A stretch of DNA of 51,645 nucleotides from Ectothiorhodospiraceae bacterium (lineage in GTDB: Bacteria; Pseudomonadota; Gammaproteobacteria; Nitrococcales; Aquisalimonadaceae), in the NCBI GenBank assembly GCA_020831885.1, contig JAFIFU010000021.1, positions 1 to 51,645 on the forward strand, in the 5' to 3' direction. The notes below the pieces were generated by a model, which worked only from the letters and a program-made list of their open reading frames with translations, was not told where the DNA came from and did no database searches. Shown here one piece after another: positions 10,710 to 22,910 of this stretch. The translations under genes and the position numbers were made by a program. Every line of letters starts with the position of its first letter. The first letter of the stretch is position 1.

Positions 10710-11507
10710 TCAAGGCCCACAACCCCGGGAGGCAAGCCAGTCCGCCAGCCGTGCGGCACAGCGTTCCCAGCCGGGTTCGATCATGAACATGTGGCCATGG
10801 TCGTCCAGTTCCAGGAAGTCGGTCCCATGGAAGCGGGCGATCTCCCGTTGCATGTCGATAACGGTGGTCCGGTCCTCGCGGCCCCCGGCGGTCAGGAGGG
10901 GGAAGGGGACGCGGGAGAGATCCGCGCCCACCGTGCCCTTGAGCACTTCCACGGCCACCGTTGCGGATTCCGGGCAGAGCTTCTGCCAGAGTTCCCGCTG
11001 GCGCCCGGGCTCCACACGGTTCAGCAGTGCCGACCGCGCCACCCGGAACCCCGGACGTATGGTGCGCTTGCGCACCATGGCGGGAATGGATTTCAGCCCG
11101 TACAGGAGGAACCAGAGGTTGAACGGCGGGTTCTGGAATTTGACCCCGGCCACCGGTGCGGAACTGGCGAACACGGCCGCCTTCAATGGCATGCTTTGGG
11201 CCAGCACCTGGGCGATGGCGCCACCCATGGAGTGGCCCACAAGGATCACCTCGCCCAGTTCCTGCAGTGCGCCGCGGACATCCTCCACGTAGTCCTGCAG
11301 CGTGACCCGGCCGAGTTCCTCCACCGGCGGGCTTGGTGGGTGTCCGCGCAGGTTCACCGCATAACAGTCGTATCCCAGAGCGGCGAAATGACCCATGAAC
11401 CCATGCCAGTACCAGGAGCCGCCGCTGGAACCGTGCACGAACAGGATGCGCGTACCCGGCCCCGGCTGGCGCTCCACCGCCAGTCCGTTGATGCTCAGTT
11501 GTTCCAC
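10710..11507 (-). CDS. Alpha/beta hydrolase
   Basis: 265 residues with GTG start following GGAGAG. The nucleophile elbow is GHSMGG (S93), the oxyanion region HGSSGGSWYW (about 25-34) and the catalytic His lies in DDHGHMF (H237 or H239), preceded by an acidic segment GGREDRTT. No signal peptide, so cytoplasmic. The family covers esterases, lipases and haloperoxidase-like enzymes; substrate unknown. It is the last of three successive minus-strand alpha/beta hydrolase genes. Confidence 0.87.
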   Translation of the reverse strand: MEQLSINGLAVERQPGPGTRILFVHGSSGGSWYWHGFMGHFAALGYDCYAVNLRGHPPSPPVEELGRVTLQDYVEDVRGALQELGEVILVGHSMGGAIAQVLAQSMPLKAAVFASSAPVAGVKFQNPPFNLWFLLYGLKSIPAMVRKRTIRPGFRVARSALLNRVEPGRQRELWQKLCPESATVAVEVLKGTVGADLSRVPFPLLTAGGREDRTTVIDMQREIARFHGTDFLELDDHGHMFMIEPGWERCAARLADWLASRGCGP

Positions 11508-11562
11508 GGTCGCTCTCCGGCGAGGGCCGGCCGCCCCCGGCGGGGCGGACCGGCCAAGGGTG

Positions 11563-13158
11563 TCAGCGCTGGTTGCCGTACCAGTACCAGTGGCCGTCCT
11601 CCTGGATCATCATGGCACCCCGTGGGAGCCTCTGGGCGCCGAAATTGGTGACCACGGCGCCCTGGATCACGGCCCGGTTGCCGTCCATCTCCAGGCCGGT
11701 GATCTCCACCCGGTAGTCCTGGAGCATGGGCAGGATCTGACGCAGGAATTCCCGCTGCGCCCGGAAATCCCGTCCGTCATCCAGGTAGTCGGGATGGTAG
11801 TGCTCCATCACCGCATCGATGTCGCCGGCCAGCACGGCTTCCCGATCGCTTTCAAGAAAAGCCTTCAGGTCATCCGGGATTTCCGGTGCCGGTTCCTGGT
11901 AGCGCGCCGGGTTCTCCGTGGGGGGGTGTAAACGCCCGGTCAGCGTGTAGCGGATGATGTCCGCATTGAAGGCATCCGGCACGTCAACGTGGGGGAAATG
12001 CGCGGCCCCCTGGTAGAACTTCACCGTGGGCCGCGGGCCCCGCTCCGAGAGCTTCTCCCAGGCAGGACGCACCAGATCCCAGCGCACATCCTGGTTACCG
12101 GTCACCACAGTGGTGGGAATCAGCGGATCCTCTTCGCCGAACAGGATGGCCACCGGCATCTCCAGCTCATCCAGGCGCTTCACCAGGCTGTCCGGATCCT
12201 CGCGGTTCAGCTCGATGCCCATGGTGTAGATGTCGCGGATGAAGGCGTAGATCCAGGCCTCGTACTCCTCCGGGTGCCCGTCGATCATTCCCACCCGGGT
12301 CTCGGTCAGGAACTGGGCGTCAATGCTGTCATTGAGAAAGAAGCCCACATCGGCCCGCCGGGTTTCGCCGGTTTCCGGATCGGTCCGGCGGAAGTAGTAG
12401 AAGTCCCTGACCGCCTGCTCGGTCATGGCCCGCTCCTGCTCCAGCCGACCCAGCGGCGCCCAGACCTCTTCCCAGGTGGTCAGATCGCGCTTGTAGGCCG
12501 GGTCCATCCACGGCATCTCACCGGTGGGCAGTTGCAGAACGCGAGGGTACTCCTCCAGTCCGGACGGGGCCACCAGGATCAGGCGCTCCACCTGGTCCGG
12601 CCAGTGCAGGGCATAACCCAGTGACCACTGGCCGCCCATGGAATGACCCATATGGGTGGCCCGGGTCACGCCCAGCTCCTCCACCAACAGGCGCTGCACG
12701 GCTTCCCGCGTGTCCTGCAGTGTGCGGTCGAAGGTGCGCCGGTCCAGGTTCCCCGGGATGGATTTGCCGTAGTGGGGGATGTCGAAGGCGATGACCCGCA
12801 GCCCGGCCTCCAGGGCATCCCGCATGAGTAGTGCAAAGCTGCCGGCGTTGGAGCCCTTGCCGTGCACCAGAATCAGCACCGGCGCATCTTCCGGATCGTC
12901 GCCCCGGTATTCATCCATGTAGGCGATCTCGTAGGCAACGCCGCGGTCGTCCCGTACCGTGGCGTACTGGGTGTCGAACGGGTAGACCACGCGCTCGCGC
13001 CAGAAGCTCTCCTCGCTGCCGCCCGGCTTGACCGCCGGCGTGCGCATGTCCGTGACCTGGTAGTGGGCCGTCGGCGCCGTCTGACAGGCGGCCAGTGTTG
13101 CCGCCGCCAGCAGGCCGAGGCCAAGCTGCCACATGCGGGTGAGTGGGTGCTGTTTCAT
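11563..13158 (-). CDS. Lipoprotein alpha/beta hydrolase fused to NTF2-like domain
   Basis: 531 residues. A lipoprotein signal peptide ends in LAAC (lipid-modified C25), so the protein is membrane-anchored in the envelope. The hydrolase domain (about 90-400) has oxyanion segment LVHGKGSNAGS, nucleophile elbow GHSMGG (S173), an acid in FGEEDPLIP and the catalytic His in GAAHFPHVDVP. The last 105 residues (about 425-531; LAGDIDAVMEHYHPDY, QDGHWYW-like end) look like a SnoaL/DUF4440 cone fold. The fusion is unusual: the extra domain may bind substrate or dimerise. Preceded by GGAGGA. Activity (esterase or lipase) is inferred. Confidence 0.85.
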   Translation of the reverse strand: MKQHPLTRMWQLGLGLLAAATLAACQTAPTAHYQVTDMRTPAVKPGGSEESFWRERVVYPFDTQYATVRDDRGVAYEIAYMDEYRGDDPEDAPVLILVHGKGSNAGSFALLMRDALEAGLRVIAFDIPHYGKSIPGNLDRRTFDRTLQDTREAVQRLLVEELGVTRATHMGHSMGGQWSLGYALHWPDQVERLILVAPSGLEEYPRVLQLPTGEMPWMDPAYKRDLTTWEEVWAPLGRLEQERAMTEQAVRDFYYFRRTDPETGETRRADVGFFLNDSIDAQFLTETRVGMIDGHPEEYEAWIYAFIRDIYTMGIELNREDPDSLVKRLDELEMPVAILFGEEDPLIPTTVVTGNQDVRWDLVRPAWEKLSERGPRPTVKFYQGAAHFPHVDVPDAFNADIIRYTLTGRLHPPTENPARYQEPAPEIPDDLKAFLESDREAVLAGDIDAVMEHYHPDYLDDGRDFRAQREFLRQILPMLQDYRVEITGLEMDGNRAVIQGAVVTNFGAQRLPRGAMMIQEDGHWYWYGNQR

Positions 13159-13257
13159 CAGGTGTCCTCCAGATGGGGCAGCGGCAGAGCTGACTGCCGG
13201 TTCATATCAGACTATGCCCACGCAGCGGATCACGCAAACATGACATGCGGGGCTGCG

Positions 13258-14118
13258 TCAGGCGAGGAGAAATGCCACCAGCGCCCGGGCGTAGGCACCC
13301 GGATCCTCAACATTCATGGAATGACCGACGCCGGGGACAATCTCCAGCCGGCAGTCCGGCAGACGCGTCCGCATCTCCTCCATGTGGGCCCGGGGGATCC
13401 AGGCATCGTGTTCGCCCCAGAGTATGAGGCGCGGGTGGCTGAGTTCCGCCTGCCGGGCCCGGAGTCCGCCACTGTGGTGCTCCCGGGTGAGCTGAACCGG
13501 CGTGCCCAGCCAGATGCCGTCACTGAGCTGGCGGGTCCGGTCCACCAGGCAGCGGAAATGGTGCCGCTGCTCCTCGCTGGCGCTGTCGCGGAAGGCGGGC
13601 ATCCGATCACCTCCCAGCGTTTCCGGCTGGAACAGGGAGGATACCGCCGTGGCCAGTGCACTCCAGCAGACCGCCGGATCGTCCCGCATGGCGGCGAAAC
13701 CCTGGATTTGTCCTTGCGTGAATGCCAGTCCCATAGGGCCTACCGGCGAGAGGCTGAGCACGCGACCGAAACGCTCCGGTTGGCGCAGTAGCATGTGGCT
13801 GGCAATGAAATCGCCGGTGGAATGGGTAGCCAGATGGCAGTGCCCGATCTCCAGGGCGTCCAGCAACGCGAGCATGTCGTCGGCATGCTCCGTCATGCTG
13901 TAGTTGGCGAAGTCGGCATCCGGCTCCGGCTTGTCCGAGTCGCCGCAGCCGCGCCAGTCCGGTGCGATCAGGTGGATTGCGTCCGGCAGATGGGGCAGCG
14001 CAAGGCTGATCCAGTCGCCGCAGCCGAGATTGCCGTGGATGAAGAGTACCGGTATTGCGCCCGGTCTGCCGTGCTCCAGGTAATGATGACGCAGGCGGGA
14101 TGTTTGCTGAAATGGCAT
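13258..14118 (-). CDS. Alpha/beta hydrolase with THSTG nucleophile elbow
   Basis: 286 residues, no signal peptide. FIHGNLGCGDW gives the oxyanion hole and GVGHSMNVEDP the catalytic His (H266). The nucleophile elbow reads ATHSTGD (S100), with Thr where the first Gly of G-X-S-X-G is usual; the family tolerates Ala or Thr there. WGEHDAWIP near 230 carries the acidic residue. It is first of a run of three alpha/beta hydrolases. A GAGGGA site precedes the ATG. It may be an esterase, epoxide hydrolase or C-C hydrolase; no choice is possible from sequence. Confidence 0.85.
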   Translation of the reverse strand: MPFQQTSRLRHHYLEHGRPGAIPVLFIHGNLGCGDWISLALPHLPDAIHLIAPDWRGCGDSDKPEPDADFANYSMTEHADDMLALLDALEIGHCHLATHSTGDFIASHMLLRQPERFGRVLSLSPVGPMGLAFTQGQIQGFAAMRDDPAVCWSALATAVSSLFQPETLGGDRMPAFRDSASEEQRHHFRCLVDRTRQLSDGIWLGTPVQLTREHHSGGLRARQAELSHPRLILWGEHDAWIPRAHMEEMRTRLPDCRLEIVPGVGHSMNVEDPGAYARALVAFLLA

Positions 14119-15809: not shown

Positions 15810-15954
15810 GTCTGATCTCCTCCGTTGGGTTGCTTGCGGCAGTCTGACATACCCCGCGTTTGACTGCCGGCGGCGCTGACCCGTAGTTTCCGGTATAACA
15901 CTCGATCGGGTGCCGAACAGCATACCGTCTGGAAGGCTGGTTACGGATGCGTGG

Positions 15955-18483
15955 ATGAAGAAGCTGATCCTATTGATGCTCGCGACGGCTCTGCTGGCCG
16001 TTGCCTACCTGTTCGTATCCGATCCGGTGGACCGTCGGCCGGCAGGGATGCCGGACGCCGTTCCGGTTGATCCCGCGGATCTGGCGGCCCGGCGGGGTGC
16101 GCTGGTGGACCAGATCGTATTCACCCAGGAATCCGATCCCGGCAAGGTCACCGGCATGATCGAAACGGGGACCCACCACGTCTTCGGTCAGGGCGTGACC
16201 AGCGTCACCGTGTTCAACCGCATCCGGGACTCCCAGCAGGCCGCCTATGACATGTCCTATGGGTTTTCGGTGGAGCTCACACTGAACCCGGCGGGACCGG
16301 AGCTGGCCGACGGCAGCCTGAATCCCTTCCACGTTCCGGCCATCCGCGAGGCGATGAACTGGCTGCTGGATCGTCGCCACGTGGCGGAGGAGCTCTACGG
16401 CGGCCTTGCCGTGCCCCGTTATCTGCCCCTGAACACGGCATTTCCCGATTATGCGCGCCTGGCCGACGTTGCCCGGGCGCTGGAGCTTCGCTACCAGTAC
16501 GATCCGGCCCGGGCCGAGCGGATCATCACCCGAGAGATGGAAAAGCTCGGCGCGGAGCGGCGCGGCGGGCAATGGCTTTATCAGGGGCAGCCGGTGCGGC
16601 TCATCGTGCTGATCCGAACGGAGGATGTGCGCCAGCGTGTGGGTGACTATGTGGCCAACCGGCTGGAGGATCTGGGCTTTCGCGTGGAGCGCCGGTACCG
16701 GGCCGCGGCAGAGGCGTCCCGTCTGTGGCTGGCGGGGGATCCGGCCGGCGGGCAGTGGCACCTGTACACCGGTGGCTGGATCGCCACCACCATCAATCGG
16801 GACCAGGTGGATCAGTTCAGCTTCTACTACACCCCCCGTGGTCGCCCGGAACCCCTGTGGCAGGCCTATGATCCGGCTCCGGAGTTCGACGAGATCAGCG
16901 AACGGCTGCAGCGTCGCGACTACAGCACATGGGAGGAGCGACAGCAGCTCATGGCCCGGGCGCTGGAGCTGGCCATGGAGGACTCGGCCCGCATCTGGCT
17001 GGTGGATCAGCTCAGCGTCTCACCCCGTTCCCGGGAAGTGGAGCTGGCGGCGGACATGGCGGGAGGCGTGTCCGGTTCCTGGCTGTGGCCCTATACCATC
17101 CGTTTCCGCGACCGTGTCGGCGGTACGGTGGTGTTCGCCCTGCCGGGTCTGCTGACAGAGCCCTGGAACCCGGTGGCGGGAAGCAACTGGGTGTTCGACA
17201 GCCTGATCATGCGCTCGCTGAACGATCTGCCCCTGCTGCCTGATCCGTTCACCGGGCTGTACTGGCCGCAGCGGATCGAATCCGCGCTGGTGACGGTCCA
17301 GGAGGACGTGCCCGTGACCCGCACCCACGATTGGCTGGCGCTGGAGACGGCGCCGGAGATCCGCGTTCCCGAGGACGCCTGGATCGCATGGGATGTGGAA
17401 AAACAGCGTTTCCTGACCGCCGGCGAAGCACATCCCCAGGGGCTCACGGCGCGAACCCGCACCCGGGTTCACTACGAGGAGGACTATTTGCAGCGCCGGT
17501 GGCACGATGGCAGCCAGGTGTCGTTGGCGGACTTGGTTCTGCCCTGGATCCTCAGTTTCGAGCGCGCCAGTGAGGACAGCCCTCTGTACGACCCCAGCCA
17601 TGCACCCAGTTTCCAGGTGTTTCAGCGCCATTTCCGCGGCTGGCGCATTGTCTCCCGGGATCCGCTCATCATCGAGATCTACAGCGATCAGGTGTTTCCG
17701 GACGCGGAGACCATTGTCGCCCAGCGCACGCCGTCGGTGCAGCCGTGGCACGTGCTGGCGCTGGGGGTGCGGGCGGAGCGCACCGGCGAACTGGCCTTTT
17801 CCTCTCACCAGGCGGACCGGCAACGGGTGGACTGGTTGAGCCTGGTGGCCGGCCCCAGTCTGCGGGTTCTGGACCGCCAGCTCGAGCAGGCCGGCGGGCA
17901 GCGCTGGCTTCCCTGGGAGGGGACGCTGGGGGGGCTGGTCCGGGAAGGAGAAGTGCTGGCGCGCTATCAGGCGCTGGCAACCTGGCGCGAGCGGCGCGGT
18001 CATTTCTGGGTGGGCGACGGGCCGTTCTATCTGCATGACGTCTACCCGGTGGAGCGGACCGTGGTCCTGCGGCGGAACGAGCACTTTCCCGACCCCAGCG
18101 ACAAATGGCTTCGCTTCACACGACCGGAGATCCCGGAGCTGGATCTGGATGGTCCGCTGGTGGTGGATGCGGGGGGTGAGGCCGAGTTCCGCCTGGAGAT
18201 CACTTTCCAGGGGGAGCGGTATCCGCCGGAGGACATCGACCTGGTGCAATACCTGTTGTTCGACAGCCGGGGGAACCTGGCCCGCCGCGGGGAGGCGGAA
18301 CCCGATGAAGCCGGTACATGGGTGGTGCGGCTCAGCGGGTCGGAGACGGCCGCGCTCGGTGCCGGCGCCAACAGCCTGGAGGTGGCCGTGACCACAGGGC
18401 GTGTGGCACTGCCCGCTTTCGCCTCCCATGGATTCGCCACGGTGCCGGAGCGACGGGCCGCTAACGGAGGGGGTGCGGATTGA
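15955..18483 (+). CDS. Large ABC solute-binding protein, apparently circularly permuted family 5
   Basis: 842 residues, far longer than the 500-600 usual for DppA/OppA. Residues 1-22 form a membrane anchor or uncleaved signal. Residues about 50-360 read like the second half of a family-5 binding protein: VDQIVFTQESDPGKVTGMIE, then PAIREAMNWLLDRRHVAEEL, a YDPARAERI helix and WEERQQLMARALELAMED. Residues about 389-715 read like the first half: GGTVVFALPG, YWPQRIESALVT, WHDGSQVSLADLV (516-528), GDGPFYLHDVYPVERTVVLR (687-706). Residues about 725-830 form a beta-rich C-terminal domain. The order is thus reversed relative to DppA. It heads a five-gene importer operon, overlapping the first permease by one base. 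Ligand unknown (peptide, oligosaccharide or other). Confidence 0.8.
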   Translation: MKKLILLMLATALLAVAYLFVSDPVDRRPAGMPDAVPVDPADLAARRGALVDQIVFTQESDPGKVTGMIETGTHHVFGQGVTSVTVFNRIRDSQQAAYDMSYGFSVELTLNPAGPELADGSLNPFHVPAIREAMNWLLDRRHVAEELYGGLAVPRYLPLNTAFPDYARLADVARALELRYQYDPARAERIITREMEKLGAERRGGQWLYQGQPVRLIVLIRTEDVRQRVGDYVANRLEDLGFRVERRYRAAAEASRLWLAGDPAGGQWHLYTGGWIATTINRDQVDQFSFYYTPRGRPEPLWQAYDPAPEFDEISERLQRRDYSTWEERQQLMARALELAMEDSARIWLVDQLSVSPRSREVELAADMAGGVSGSWLWPYTIRFRDRVGGTVVFALPGLLTEPWNPVAGSNWVFDSLIMRSLNDLPLLPDPFTGLYWPQRIESALVTVQEDVPVTRTHDWLALETAPEIRVPEDAWIAWDVEKQRFLTAGEAHPQGLTARTRTRVHYEEDYLQRRWHDGSQVSLADLVLPWILSFERASEDSPLYDPSHAPSFQVFQRHFRGWRIVSRDPLIIEIYSDQVFPDAETIVAQRTPSVQPWHVLALGVRAERTGELAFSSHQADRQRVDWLSLVAGPSLRVLDRQLEQAGGQRWLPWEGTLGGLVREGEVLARYQALATWRERRGHFWVGDGPFYLHDVYPVERTVVLRRNEHFPDPSDKWLRFTRPEIPELDLDGPLVVDAGGEAEFRLEITFQGERYPPEDIDLVQYLLFDSRGNLARRGEAEPDEAGTWVVRLSGSETAALGAGANSLEVAVTTGRVALPAFASHGFATVPERRAANGGGAD

Positions 18484-19598
18484 TGCACGGTGTCACGGGT
18501 GCGACGTCGCCGGTGCCGCGGGGCCTGTGGCGGGATATCCGCAGCATGCTGGTGTTTTCCGCCAAGCGGCTGCTGGCTCTGTTTCTGACAGTGCTGGTGG
18601 GGGTTTATCTGACCATCTATATCGCCAATATGGGCGGCCAGGTGGACGAACTGCGGCTGGTGCAGATCCGTGGCACGGTGGGCGAGGAGGTGCGGGCCGA
18701 CCCCGCGTTCTTTGATCTGCCGGCGGCGGAACGCAATGCGCTGATCGAGGAGCGGGTGCAACTGGAAGTGGAGCGCCTGCGGCTGGACCAACCCTTTCTG
18801 CTCCGCAGCGTCGACTACCTTCAGCAGGCCATCCGGCTGGACCTGGGTCGCGCCGAGCAAATGCACAGCGACAGCGGCTCCCGGCAGGTGTATGACATCA
18901 TCGTGGAGCGCCTGCCCGCCACCCTGCTGCTGTTCGGCACAGCCAATCTGCTGGTGTTTTTTGTCTCCGTGTTTGTCGCCCTGGCCTTGTCACGCCGTTA
19001 TGGCAGCCCTCTGGACCGGGCGGTGATCGCCCTGGCGCCCAGTTCGGCGGCGCCGGCCTGGTTCTACGGCATTTTCCTGATCCTGATCTTCGCCTTCCTG
19101 GTTCCGATGCTTCCGGCCGGGGGCATGGTGCAGGTACCGCCGCCGGAGGGCAGCCTGGCCTACGCTGCCAGCGTACTACGCCACATGGCGCTGCCGGTGC
19201 TGGCCATGTTCCTGGGCAGTATCTTCATCTCGATCTATTCCTGGCGCACCTTCTTCCTCATCCATTCCAGCGAGGATTACGTGGAAATGGCCCGGGTCAA
19301 GGGCTTGTCCTCCGGCCTGATCCAGCGTCGCTACATCCTGCGGCCCACACTCTCGCCCATCATCACCAGCTTCGCGCTGATGCTGATCGGCCTGTGGAGC
19401 GGCGCCATCATCCTGGAGCAGGTGTTCAACTGGCCCGGGCTCGGCACGCTGCTGTTCCAGGCCATCGGCCATCGGGATACACCGGTGATCATCGGTTCGG
19501 TGGTGATCTTCGCCTACCTGCTGGCCATTACCGTGTTTCTGCTGGACATCCTGTATGCGGTGCTGGACCCGCGGGTGCGTATGGAGGCAAATCGATGA
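18483..19598 (+). CDS. OppB/DppB-like ABC importer permease
   Basis: 371 residues. TM1 is at about 20-45, followed by an extended periplasmic loop (about 50-130), then the five-helix BPD_transp_1 core. The coupling loop EDYVEMARVKGLSSGLIQRR (about 262-281) carries the EAA-type motif that contacts the ATPases; the C-terminus LDPRVRMEANR is typical of DppB. Start ATG at 18483 overlaps the binding-protein stop as TGATG and follows GGAGGGGG; its end overlaps the next gene as ATGA. Confidence 0.92.
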   Translation: MHGVTGATSPVPRGLWRDIRSMLVFSAKRLLALFLTVLVGVYLTIYIANMGGQVDELRLVQIRGTVGEEVRADPAFFDLPAAERNALIEERVQLEVERLRLDQPFLLRSVDYLQQAIRLDLGRAEQMHSDSGSRQVYDIIVERLPATLLLFGTANLLVFFVSVFVALALSRRYGSPLDRAVIALAPSSAAPAWFYGIFLILIFAFLVPMLPAGGMVQVPPPEGSLAYAASVLRHMALPVLAMFLGSIFISIYSWRTFFLIHSSEDYVEMARVKGLSSGLIQRRYILRPTLSPIITSFALMLIGLWSGAIILEQVFNWPGLGTLLFQAIGHRDTPVIIGSVVIFAYLLAITVFLLDILYAVLDPRVRMEANR

Positions 19599-20929
19599 GC
19601 GGGCGCTGGGCACAGGGGCTGGCGCAGTTGCGCCGCTACCCGTCGGCCGTGGTGGGCATGGGGCTGATCGCGCTGCTGGTGGCGCTGTCCATCTACACGG
19701 TGTTCGCCATTCCCTACAGCCAGGCGCTGGATCTGTGGCGGGGCGGCGAGGCCTGGCGCATGCATCCGGTCAACGCCCGGCCGGTGTGGGTGGACCGGCT
19801 TGCCGGTGGCGACCTGCCGCGGACCCAGGTCATTGCCAGCGATCCCTCGCTGGTGGTCTCGGAGGCCTTCGAGGGCGGCCGGCAGAAGCGGATCGAGCTG
19901 GCCTTCGATTATGACAGCAGCGCCTTCCCCAGTGAGTTGAACCTGTTCCTGGACGCCCGTTTCGCCGAGCGTGAGCCCTTCGTGCGCATGAGCTGGCATA
20001 CCCCGGACGGCCGCGAGATTCACCTGGGGGGACGGCGGATCACCGGTAAGGACCGGGTTTCCATTTCCCAGGACTGGAACCTGGAGCGGCGCCTGGGGCT
20101 TGTGCCCCACGTGGGGCTCCTGGCGGAACCGGGGAATGGAGAAAGCCCCGTGGTGCACCAGGGGCGGCATGCGCTGGTGCTGGACGCGGTGCTGTTCGAG
20201 GAAGATGCCGAACTGGATGCCAGCCTGGCCGTCTACGGGCGGGTGCACGGGCTGGCGGGCACCGACCACCAGCGGCGGGACCTGATGGTGGCGCTGATGT
20301 GGGGTACACCCATCGCACTGGCCTTCGGTCTTCTGGCGGCGGTGGGCACCACAATCACCACCCTGGTGATCGCCGCCACCGGGGTCTGGTTCGGCGGCTG
20401 GGTGGACGCCACCATCCAGCGCCTGACCGAGGTTAACATCATCCTGCCCCTGCTGCCGATCCTGGTGATGGTGGGGACGCTGTATTCCACCAGCATCTGG
20501 GTCATGCTGGGCGTGGTGATCGCTTTGGGGATCTTCAGTGCCGGCATCAAGATGTACCGGGCCATGCTGCTGCCGATCCGCGAGGCGCCTTACGTGGAAG
20601 CCGCCCGGGCCTACGGAGCCGGCCATGCCCGGATCATTCTGCGCTACATGATCCCGCGTATCCTGCCGGTACTGATCCCCACCTTCGTCACCCTGATCCC
20701 CACCTTCGTGTTCCTGGAGGCCTCGCTGGCCTTGCTGGGGCTGGGGGATCCGGTGCTGCCCACCTGGGGCAAGGTGATGAACGATGCCCAGGCGCAGAGC
20801 GCTTTGTACCACGGCTTCTACTACTGGGTGCTGGCGCCGGCGGCGCTGCTGATGCTCACCGGTCTTGGCTTCGCCATGCTCGGCTTTGCACTGGACCGTG
20901 TGTTCAACCCACGACTGAGGAACCTGTGA
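19595..20929 (+). CDS. OppC/DppC-like ABC importer permease with large periplasmic insertion
   Basis: 444 residues against roughly 300 for a standard DppC. TM1 is at about 15-40; the hallmark GTDxxGRD of the family appears as GTDHQRRDL at about 224-232, just before the permease core. Between them sits some 160 extra residues, beta-rich and soluble (for example QKRIELAFDYDSSAFPSELN and FVRMSWHTPDGREIHLGG), which would lie in the periplasm facing the binding protein. The EAA loop is EAPYVEAARAYGAGHARII. Overlaps both neighbours by 4 and 1 bases. The insertion may dock the unusual binding protein. Confidence 0.9.
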   Translation: MSGRWAQGLAQLRRYPSAVVGMGLIALLVALSIYTVFAIPYSQALDLWRGGEAWRMHPVNARPVWVDRLAGGDLPRTQVIASDPSLVVSEAFEGGRQKRIELAFDYDSSAFPSELNLFLDARFAEREPFVRMSWHTPDGREIHLGGRRITGKDRVSISQDWNLERRLGLVPHVGLLAEPGNGESPVVHQGRHALVLDAVLFEEDAELDASLAVYGRVHGLAGTDHQRRDLMVALMWGTPIALAFGLLAAVGTTITTLVIAATGVWFGGWVDATIQRLTEVNIILPLLPILVMVGTLYSTSIWVMLGVVIALGIFSAGIKMYRAMLLPIREAPYVEAARAYGAGHARIILRYMIPRILPVLIPTFVTLIPTFVFLEASLALLGLGDPVLPTWGKVMNDAQAQSALYHGFYYWVLAPAALLMLTGLGFAMLGFALDRVFNPRLRNL

Positions 20930-21903
20930 TGGCCCGGGACACGCTGCTGCAGGTGAAGGATCTCAGCGTGCATTACCGCACCGAGCGGGGCGCCGTGCGT
21001 GCCGTGGACGGCGTGAGCTTCGACGTGCGCAGGAATGAGGCCTTGGTGGTGCTGGGTGAATCCGGCTGCGGCAAGAGTTCCCTGGCCAAGACCCTGTTAC
21101 GGGTGCTGCCGCGCAACGTGGCCCACGTGGGTGGGGAGGTGCTGCTGGGCGGCGAGAACATCATGGCCTGGCCGGAGGAACGCTTCCGTCGCGAGGTCCG
21201 CTGGCTGCGCATCTCCATGGTGATGCAGGCGGCGATGAACGCGCTGAACCCGGTGGTGCGGGTGGGTGAACAGGTGGCGGAACCGTTGCGCGTACACCGC
21301 GGGCTGGGCAGAGCACAGGCCACGGAGCGGGCGGCCGAGGTGTTCAACCTGGTGGGGCTTTCACCCGATTTCCTGCAGCGCTATCCCTTCGAGCTCTCCG
21401 GCGGCATGCGTCAGCGTGCGGTGCTGGCCATGGCGCTGATCACCGAGCCGGAGCTGGTGATCATGGATGAGCCCACCTCGGCGCTGGACGTGCTGACCCA
21501 GGCCAGCATCATGAACGTGCTCAAGCGGATCAAGGCGGAGCTGGGCACCAGCTTCATCCTGATCACCCACGATGTGGCAACGTCCAGCGAGATCGCCGAC
21601 CGGGTGGCGCTGATGTATGCGGGACAGATCAGCGAGGTGGCCAGCGCGGTGGATTTCTTCCATCAGCCGGCGCACCCCTATTCCAAGTTGCTGATGGACA
21701 GTGTGCCGCGCCTGCGTCAGTCGGGGCGGCCGGTGCACATCCCGGGGGAGCCCCCCAACCTGATCCACCCGCCGTCGGGCTGTCGCTTCGCGGAACGCTG
21801 CCCTGCGCGTTTCGGACGCTGCCGTCAGGATCCGCCGGTCTTCGAACTGCCCAACCGGCGGCAGGTGCGCTGCTGGTTGTATGAAGGCGGAGGTGGGCGA
21901 TGA
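20929..21903 (+). CDS. DppD/OppD-like ABC importer ATPase
   Basis: 324 residues. Walker A GESGCGKSS (about 42-50), signature LSGGMRQRAVLAMAL, Walker B LVIMDEPTSALD and the H-loop in LITHD are all intact. The C-terminal oligopeptide extension contains the four-cysteine-type segment GCRFAERCPARFGRC ending in CWLY, typical of Opp/Dpp ATPases. ATG at 20929 overlaps the preceding stop as TGATG; the end overlaps the next gene as ATGA. Pairs with the following ATPase as a heterodimer. Confidence 0.94.
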   Translation: MARDTLLQVKDLSVHYRTERGAVRAVDGVSFDVRRNEALVVLGESGCGKSSLAKTLLRVLPRNVAHVGGEVLLGGENIMAWPEERFRREVRWLRISMVMQAAMNALNPVVRVGEQVAEPLRVHRGLGRAQATERAAEVFNLVGLSPDFLQRYPFELSGGMRQRAVLAMALITEPELVIMDEPTSALDVLTQASIMNVLKRIKAELGTSFILITHDVATSSEIADRVALMYAGQISEVASAVDFFHQPAHPYSKLLMDSVPRLRQSGRPVHIPGEPPNLIHPPSGCRFAERCPARFGRCRQDPPVFELPNRRQVRCWLYEGGGGR

Positions 21904-22910
21904 CTGCGATGCAGGCGGACCGGATGACCGGGGAAGACGTGCTTCTATCCGTGCAGGACCTGCAGGTGTGGTTCGAGCTGCGCCAATGGGGGTTCCTGCG
22001 CGTGGGATCGGTGCGCGCCGTGGACGGGATCACCCTGGACCTCAGGCGGGGCGAGGCCGTGGCCTTTGTGGGCGAATCCGGTTGCGGCAAGAGCTCGCTG
22101 GCGAAAACGCTTCTCGGACTGCACCGTCCCACCCGGGGCCAGGTGGTGTTCGATGGCCAGTCCCTGGGTGCACTGGACCGGGCCGGGCTCAAGGACTACC
22201 GCGCACGGGTGGGGTATGTCCAGCAGGATCCCTACGGCGCGCTGCCGCCGTTCATGGACGTCCGCCGCTTGCTGCACGAGCCGCTGATCATCCACGGCAT
22301 ACGCGATCGGGCCGAACGGGAGCGGCGCGTGCACCAGGTACTTGAGGAGGTGCGTCTGACGCCGCCGGCGGAGTACCTGGGCAAGTTTCCCCACCAGTTG
22401 AGCGGTGGCCAGCAGCAGCGGGTTGTCATCGCCCGTGCACTGATTCTGAACCCCCAGCTCATCATCGCCGACGAACCGGTGTCCATGCTGGACGCCTCGG
22501 TGCGGGTGGAGGTCCTCAATCTGTTGCGCCGTATCCAGCAGGAGCACAACCTGACCCTGGCCTTCATTACCCATGACCTGTCCACGGTGCGCCACTACGC
22601 GGAGCGTATTTTCGTCATGTATGCCGGTCGTGTGGTGGAGCAGGCCCAGGTGGATGCGCTGCTGGATCACCCGCAGCACCCCTACACCCAGGCGCTGCTG
22701 GCCGCGCTCTCGGATCCGGATGCGGCCAATGCCCGCCGGCAGGCGGAGATCCCCCCCGGCGAGCCACCCAGCCTGATCAATCCGCCGGCCGGTTGCCGCT
22801 TTCATCCCCGTTGTCCCCGGGTCATGGCCGGGATCTGCGATGTGGACGAGCCCCCGGACTTCGAACCGCGCTCCGGGCACCGCTCCGCCTGCTGGCTGCA
22901 CCGTCACTAA
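21900..22910 (+). CDS. DppF/OppF-like ABC importer ATPase
   Basis: 336 residues. Walker A GESGCGKSS, signature LSGGQQQRVVIARAL, Walker B LIIADEPVSMLD and H-loop FITHD are present, followed by the Opp-type C-terminal cysteine cluster GCRFHPRCPRVMAGIC and CWLH. The final TAA (22908-22910) is part of the left arm of the palindrome at 22907-23081. Last gene of the importer operon. Confidence 0.94.
   Translation: MTAMQADRMTGEDVLLSVQDLQVWFELRQWGFLRVGSVRAVDGITLDLRRGEAVAFVGESGCGKSSLAKTLLGLHRPTRGQVVFDGQSLGALDRAGLKDYRARVGYVQQDPYGALPPFMDVRRLLHEPLIIHGIRDRAERERRVHQVLEEVRLTPPAEYLGKFPHQLSGGQQQRVVIARALILNPQLIIADEPVSMLDASVRVEVLNLLRRIQQEHNLTLAFITHDLSTVRHYAERIFVMYAGRVVEQAQVDALLDHPQHPYTQALLAALSDPDAANARRQAEIPPGEPPSLINPPAGCRFHPRCPRVMAGICDVDEPPDFEPRSGHRSACWLHRH

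Follow-up and report, generated by a model that had tools for sequence, protein, structure and literature searches.

Solute-binding proteins of family 5 (PF00496, cluster C), among them DppA, AppA and NikA, share one order of segments from the N- to the C-terminus, and the archaeal oligopeptide permease A of Thermococcus kodakaraensis (TkOppA, PDB entry 7fi3, whose title records an endogenous pentapeptide) has this canonical order too, an N-terminal half that we call B followed by a C-terminal half that we call A. Glycine betaine-binding proteins of ABC importers belong to a different cluster from family 5. In the available sections of the respective papers, members of that group are described as related by permutation (PMC2395249), and TpMglB-2 of Treponema pallidum, a tethered ABC binding protein designated 'Type Ic / Cluster Bc', is presented as a natural circular permutation in which ligand binding and conformational change are retained, tethering being raised by its authors as a possible reason for the rearrangement (PMC4990184). 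DNA methyltransferases are reported, again in the sections available, to include circularly permuted members of a single fold, with duplication intermediates documented, as in the permutation-by-duplication model (PMC3320104). Among the matches listed in a search of open-licence papers, we found no family-5 binding protein described as naturally permuted: the accessible parts of PMC3824201 (on P. furiosus) and PMC12710961 mention none, in those of PMC2588589 both search terms occur in unrelated places, and in those of PMC10776388 entry 7fi3 appears merely in a list of entries.

We analyzed a window of 51,645 nucleotides, the whole stretch of DNA considered here, in which an 842-residue open reading frame at 15955-18483 on the plus strand encodes what ORF analysis, phmmer, Pfam and half profiles identify as a circularly permuted family-5 solute-binding protein. 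The frame is stop-free and begins with an ATG at 15955; a GTG at 15910 is a possible alternative start that would lengthen it. All parts of the chain lie on the plus strand: a hydrophobic segment (residues 1-21, 15955..16017); half A (residues 46-387, 16090..17115), which corresponds to the C-terminal half of canonical family-5 proteins by Pfam, profiles and structural superposition; half B (residues 388-722, 17116..18120), which corresponds to the N-terminal half of 7fi3 by phmmer and profile; and a C-terminal beta domain (residues 723-830, 18121..18444) recognized from Pfam, the structure model and comparison with relatives. Within half A, the model and the order of segments in relatives place a beta-hairpin turn (residues 209-213, 16579..16593) at the position of the second cut in the A2-B-A1 relatives described below. 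The window also contains three alpha/beta-hydrolase genes upstream of the binding-protein gene (10710-14118, minus strand), and elsewhere in the same genome a single other PF00496 match (C96:79180-80238) covers profile positions 2-353 in canonical order.

The first-pass annotation had proposed that residues of about 50-360 represent the second half of a DppA-like protein and residues of about 389-715 the first half, and separate profile searches with each half bear out this circular permutation. The SBP_bac_5 profile (PF00496) aligned residues 50-283 with profile positions 147-354 of 368 at 58.0 bits, above the curated cut-off of 32.4; residues 386-722, searched alone against Pfam, gave no match at E ≤ 10. 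A phmmer search of the PDB returned a single strong relative, 7fi3_A (E 1.6e-28), aligned in two segments whose order is reversed: query residues 466-709 match chain residues 66-304, and query residues 122-292 match chain residues 402-583. Profiles built for half A (46-387) and half B (388-735) with 34 and 33 aligned sequences, respectively, separated in the same manner. The half-A profile matched 7fi3 at 331-586 (E 1.9e-33) and 12 further chains at E ≤ 0.01, of which one is a fragment of 229 residues and the full-length ones aligned through their second half, while the half-B profile matched 7fi3 alone, at 64-310 (E 6.4e-21), with no other chain at E ≤ 1. Against 15 canonical family-5 proteins, which were taken from fetched genomes and chosen for their weak match to half A, hhalign placed half A over 304 columns on the C-terminal side (probability 99.6) and half B over 17 columns at the N-terminal-side WHDG motif (probability 18.7). 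The derivation of both halves from one region was ruled out, as the profiles point to different regions, and residues 50-360 did not match the N-terminal part of the family. The swap of order in the 842-residue protein is confirmed: its segments depart from the canonical N-to-C order of the PF00496 family, and we describe it as a permuted branch of SBP_bac_5 that is homologous by descent and no ordinary member.

Structure prediction agreed with these assignments for half A. Because a single-sequence model of the binding protein was poor (pLDDT 38.4), we used an AlphaFold2 model of residues 46-842 built with 32 aligned sequences (pLDDT 92.9, pTM 0.88), for which the top Foldseek match was 7fi3 (E 4.3e-20); all 50 matches listed in each fold search were family-5-like proteins. 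VIA-align superposed residues 46-387 (model residues 1-342) on 7fi3 331-755 with Z 27.3, an rmsd of 2.4 and 336 aligned positions, and model residues 1-340 on DppA (1dpp) 206-507 with Z 21.3, an rmsd of 2.6 and 294 aligned positions. As half A superposes on the C-terminal halves of canonical proteins, the start of the chain corresponds to the second half of such a protein. Among the matches listed, the VIA-align superpositions concern half A, and the placement of half B comes from sequence comparison; taken together, profiles and model support a circular permutation of a family-5 binding protein in which half B would be the original N-terminal half. Since Pfam detects half A only, many archaeal and bacterial receptors of this kind are probably half-annotated.

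The chain ends differ among relatives. The segment at residues 1-21, which forms a helix in the poor single-sequence model, is hydrophobic and lacks a lipobox, in keeping with the N-terminal membrane anchor suggested at first pass, and it may be either a signal or an anchor, the latter requiring that it stay uncleaved. The extra beta domain suggested there is borne out by strands at about 728-830 in the model; it is weakly Ig-like at best, with a FlgD_ig match (E 0.04, 14.3 bits) below the cut-off of 27. A survey of tethers by a crude hydrophobicity and motif scan, in whose rows some genes are counted twice, found a C-terminal hydrophobic segment in 103 and a beta domain in 83 of 130 rows from the archaeal phylum considered below. 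The 44 proteobacterial rows comprised no C-terminal segment, 41 N-terminal segments, three lipobox-like motifs and 43 beta domains, and the 30 Chloroflexota rows comprised 28 lipobox-like motifs, 30 beta domains and eight flagged C-terminal segments, the last of which are probably false. The beta domain went undetected in L051, both copies of L053, L054, L240, L241, L244 and L064. It was ruled out as the cause of the permutation, as relatives without it are also A-B. In four Chloroflexota loci (L032, L037, L043 and L047), linkers of VEVPVEV-like or VEKEV-like repeats precede half A.

The binding-protein gene is the first of five whose neighbours overlap by 1 to 4 bases, depending on the starts chosen. 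Its stop overlaps the start of an OppB-type permease (18483..19598), followed by an OppC-type permease of 444 residues (19595..20929) and by ATPases of the OppD type (20926..21903) and OppF type (21900..22910), all on the plus strand and identified by Pfam and tblastn. Both ATPases contain ABC_tran and oligo_HPY, the latter being the C-terminal domain of oligopeptide/dipeptide transporters, so that the permeases and ATPases expected beside a family-5 protein are present in a conserved operon. In a tblastn search with the four window proteins, a complete OppB-OppC-OppD-OppF set lay downstream in 37 of the 40 scan loci that had at least 5.3 kb after the binding-protein gene; of the exceptions, L018 was divergent and L026 and L060 were without the set. 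An adjacent set was absent from L241 and L244 as well, and it was present in L042, the sole archaeal locus with a long enough flank. L241 also has a 1082-residue minus-strand A-B frame, in which about 380 residues upstream of half A match neither half.

Given its potential membrane tether and additional beta domain, the protein could be regarded not as a transport receptor but as a membrane-bound enzyme or sensor that uses the same fold; however, the overlap of its gene with the oppBCDF-type genes, their recurrence downstream in nearly all scan loci with a long enough flank and the lack of any common family among ten neighbours outside the five genes make that interpretation improbable. Those ten proteins, one per locus from ten loci, shared no family, and the one from L023 matched nothing, so the neighbourhood provides no clue to the substrate. 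The family, the pentapeptide in 7fi3 and the oligopeptide-type ATPases make an oligopeptide our best guess for the substrate.

The permease was described at first pass as unusual, and this was confirmed for OppC: residues 218-441 align with 62-282 of the DppC chain 8wd9, leaving an insert of about 150 residues (about 19727-20224), after the first transmembrane helix and ahead of the permease core, that is absent from solved DppC and OppC chains. OppC was matched over nearly its full length, insert included, in 50 of 51 loci. The first-pass annotation also suggested docking on this permease; special docking is not supported as the reason for the permutation, as operons with the long OppC also adjoin A2-B-A1 proteins and a B-before-A fragment, and on the same grounds the long OppC was rejected as a partner that goes with the A-B order alone. 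With similar operons beside proteins of several orders, it is probably the folded surface that matters for docking, not the order of the chain.

The A-B form is widespread in archaea and in some bacteria, including Chloroflexota and halophilic Proteobacteria. A scan of species genomes yielded 64 loci, most spanning about residues 46-831, from Ectothiorhodospiraceae, Halomonadaceae, a few Alphaproteobacteria, Chloroflexota, Bipolaricaulota, Planctomycetota, Kiritimatiellota, Bacillota, one Bathyarchaeota record and others, with Halomonas cerina and Halospina denitrificans among the named strains. Two of these loci were imperfect, L057 being split into two frames and the frame of L029 ending inside the beta domain. 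Among relatives of the window genome, 27 of 59 genomes matched, the window's own included. The phylum of the Bathyarchaeota genome contributed 133 places with a half-A match at E ≤ 1e-20, in 115 of 200 genomes; both halves lay in one frame, always A then B, at 130 of these, and the other three were half A running up to a contig end (L158, L308) and half A with pieces of half B downstream of it in different frames (L307). In the Chloroflexi phylum of L064, 15 of 151 genomes matched, with 14 A-B loci and one B-A locus, that of L064 itself, and in the Bipolaricaulota phylum of L054, searched with L240, 44 of 100 genomes matched and all of the best 30 loci were A-B, 14 of them with a beta domain. 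The 375 loci overall comprised 277 distinct A-B sequences (a few of which may represent a single gene truncated at the end of a locus), one B-A sequence and six A-B-A sequences, one of the last being a shortened copy of L240. A tblastn search of a plasmid collection gave no match. Many of the genomes are metagenome bins, which could raise the suspicion of an assembly artefact or chimeric gene; with so many distinct sequences on independent contigs, named strains among them, and nearly half of the window's relatives matched, an artefact is ruled out for the A-B form, and we assign this explanation a negligible probability.

A further order, A2-B-A1, was found in Dehalococcoidia. By profile positions, L240 (genome G540) reads A168-341, B3-340, A3-162, half A being cut within the beta-hairpin and its first part (A1) placed at the chain end. 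When 84 genomes of its order were searched with L240, seven matched and four carried A2-B-A1, giving five such proteins in G540, G657 (two copies), G669 and G670, one of which (L332) is cut by a contig edge. This host order lies within Dehalococcoidia, and G061, the Dehalococcoidia record that contains L053, belongs to it too. Opp genes adjoin four of the five (L240, L331, L332 and L333, the last with OppC, OppD and OppF in the stretch read), and none occurred within the 10 kb read around L334. No further A2-B-A1 protein was found among 393 genomes sampled from the class (nine matched, with at most two candidates scored per genome), nor any further re-permuted case among 15 genomes of the order of L064 (one matched). 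The contig of L064 (Chloroflexi bin_27) starts with the last part of half B, continues in frame through a complete half A to a stop, and then carries OppB-C-D-F; with its start missing, L064 may be either a plain B-A protein or a longer A2-B-A1-A2 protein.

To place these forms, we built trees rooted with the 7fi3 fragments, a single long-branched outgroup. Most bacterial rows formed one group inside the archaeal rows (support 100/99 and, in the second tree, 100/100), and we consider it most likely that the A-B permutation arose once, early, in archaea and then spread to bacteria. Six Chloroflexota members of archaeal type (L139, L224, L226, L227, L229 and L230) fell outside the bacterial group in the 80-row tree, suggesting a second transfer. 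L064, L240 and the other A2-B-A1 proteins were nested in the A-B group, within an 18-row part (100/100) in which the beta domain was undetected, and a tree holding the A-B proteins together without the re-cut forms was rejected (p 0.00056, and p 3e-31 in the second tree); as the groups in this and the following tests were named after the first tree had been seen, the p values are somewhat optimistic. The tree requires at least six changes of order, or five without L064.

The five A2-B-A1 proteins occupied three or four places in the tree: L333 grouped with L051/L053 (100/99), L334 with L338/L336/L244 (100/100), and L331 and L332 with L064 (100/98), while L240 lay nearby at an unresolved position. 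They might nevertheless have had a single origin, their scattered places resulting from gene conversion between paralogues of the same genome, since all five come from one Dehalococcoidia order and share the same cut, L331, L332 and L333 share the linker motif PAHTG between B and A1, and G540, G669 and G670 carry other copies of the family. A single A2-B-A1 clade was, however, rejected on the whole chain (p 2.2e-7, or 3.5e-6 without L333), on half B alone (p 2.4e-5) and on half A alone (p 3.4e-6). Segments A1, A2 and B of L333 were 59, 60 and 57% identical to the first copy of L053, and those of L334 were 49, 53 and 59% identical to L244, so that all three segments of each protein point to the same local A-B relatives, in agreement with the trees. 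We therefore regard a single origin masked by gene conversion as doubtful.

How the orders arose can be approached through the duplicates in these genomes. At L053 (163-5697), two tandem A-B genes about 1 kb apart, the beta domain undetected in both, lie upstream of one Opp operon; such copies provide raw material for permutation by duplication. A different arrangement occurs at L335 (G668), where two A-B frames about 8 kb apart, with the Opp operon between them, share one long tree branch. The duplication followed by loss of outer halves that the first-pass annotation had raised is plausible in view of the tandem genes in L053 and the re-permuted forms in its order; no fused duplicate (A-B-A-B) or fused intermediate was found in the loci searched, and the gaps and flanks of re-permuted genes gave matches to duplicate remnants at chance level only (best E 0.068). 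The missing duplicates and remnants are also what would be expected if separate half genes had been fused in a new order with no duplicated intermediate at any stage. Yet the eight single-half loci among those from the species scan and the window's relatives (L049, L052, L059, L062, L063, L091, L093 and L094) all reach the end of their locus and demonstrate no separate half gene, tandem copies occur in L053 and paralogues in several genomes, and recurrent re-cutting would be simpler by duplication, all of which leads us to consider fission and fusion unlikely. About as likely as not is the broader proposition that this family is prone to permutation: its circle would have been cut at two places, with at least three independent hairpin cuts within one Dehalococcoidia order, and B-before-A would have been regained once, in most cases with permease genes of the same kind alongside; L064 could then be the half-trimmed intermediate, A2-B-A1-A2, that the duplication model predicts.

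We propose with considerable confidence that the product of the window gene is the receptor of an Opp-type ABC importer, a permuted family-5 (cluster C) two-lobe chain whose A-B order most likely arose once, in archaea, and was re-cut in Dehalococcoidia. In such a receptor, a very short link at around residue 387 would connect the old N- and C-termini, and the loop that normally leads from half B to half A would have been opened to give new ones. Outside the inner membrane, both halves would pack into one Venus-flytrap body that binds a solute (most likely oligopeptides) as its lobes close, docks on OppB/OppC and hands the solute over, with OppD/OppF supplying power. The new N-terminus may tether the body to the membrane, with the beta domain borne on the new C-terminus, and in many archaeal relatives the membrane anchor would be at the C-terminus instead. 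In Dehalococcoidia the circle was cut again, this repeated re-cutting probably proceeding via tandem duplication. These related binding proteins form a natural series, with two or three circular orders (A-B, A2-B-A1 and the B-before-A fragment) occurring next to the same kind of permease. The series makes it possible to test the roles of chain order, tether position and termini in docking, lobe closure and folding, as well as how permutations arise, and it supplies natural, tolerated cut sites for the engineering of permuted biosensors.

Compared with described systems, the window protein is closest to TkOppA, to which both of its halves match by sequence and half A by fold, but TkOppA runs canonically from B to A, whereas the window protein runs from A to B and adds the C-terminal beta domain. 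It resembles DppA, AppA and NikA in its OppBCDF-type operon and in half A, which corresponds in profile and fold to their second halves, and it differs from them in its swapped halves, its longer chain and a half B that is barely detectable against generic members. TpMglB-2 is a cluster B sugar binder, with another fold cluster and another cut, and the available sections of its description report no re-permutation. The relation among glycine betaine-binding proteins was drawn, in the sections available, from structure comparison of divergent proteins and not from rearrangements within one conserved operon (PMC2395249), and the DNA methyltransferases, as described in the sections at hand, are enzymes and not binding proteins. 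Permuted ABC binding proteins are thus known from other clusters; what is unusual here is the breadth of the permuted family, its likely age, and the fact that it was re-cut repeatedly next to permeases of a constant kind.
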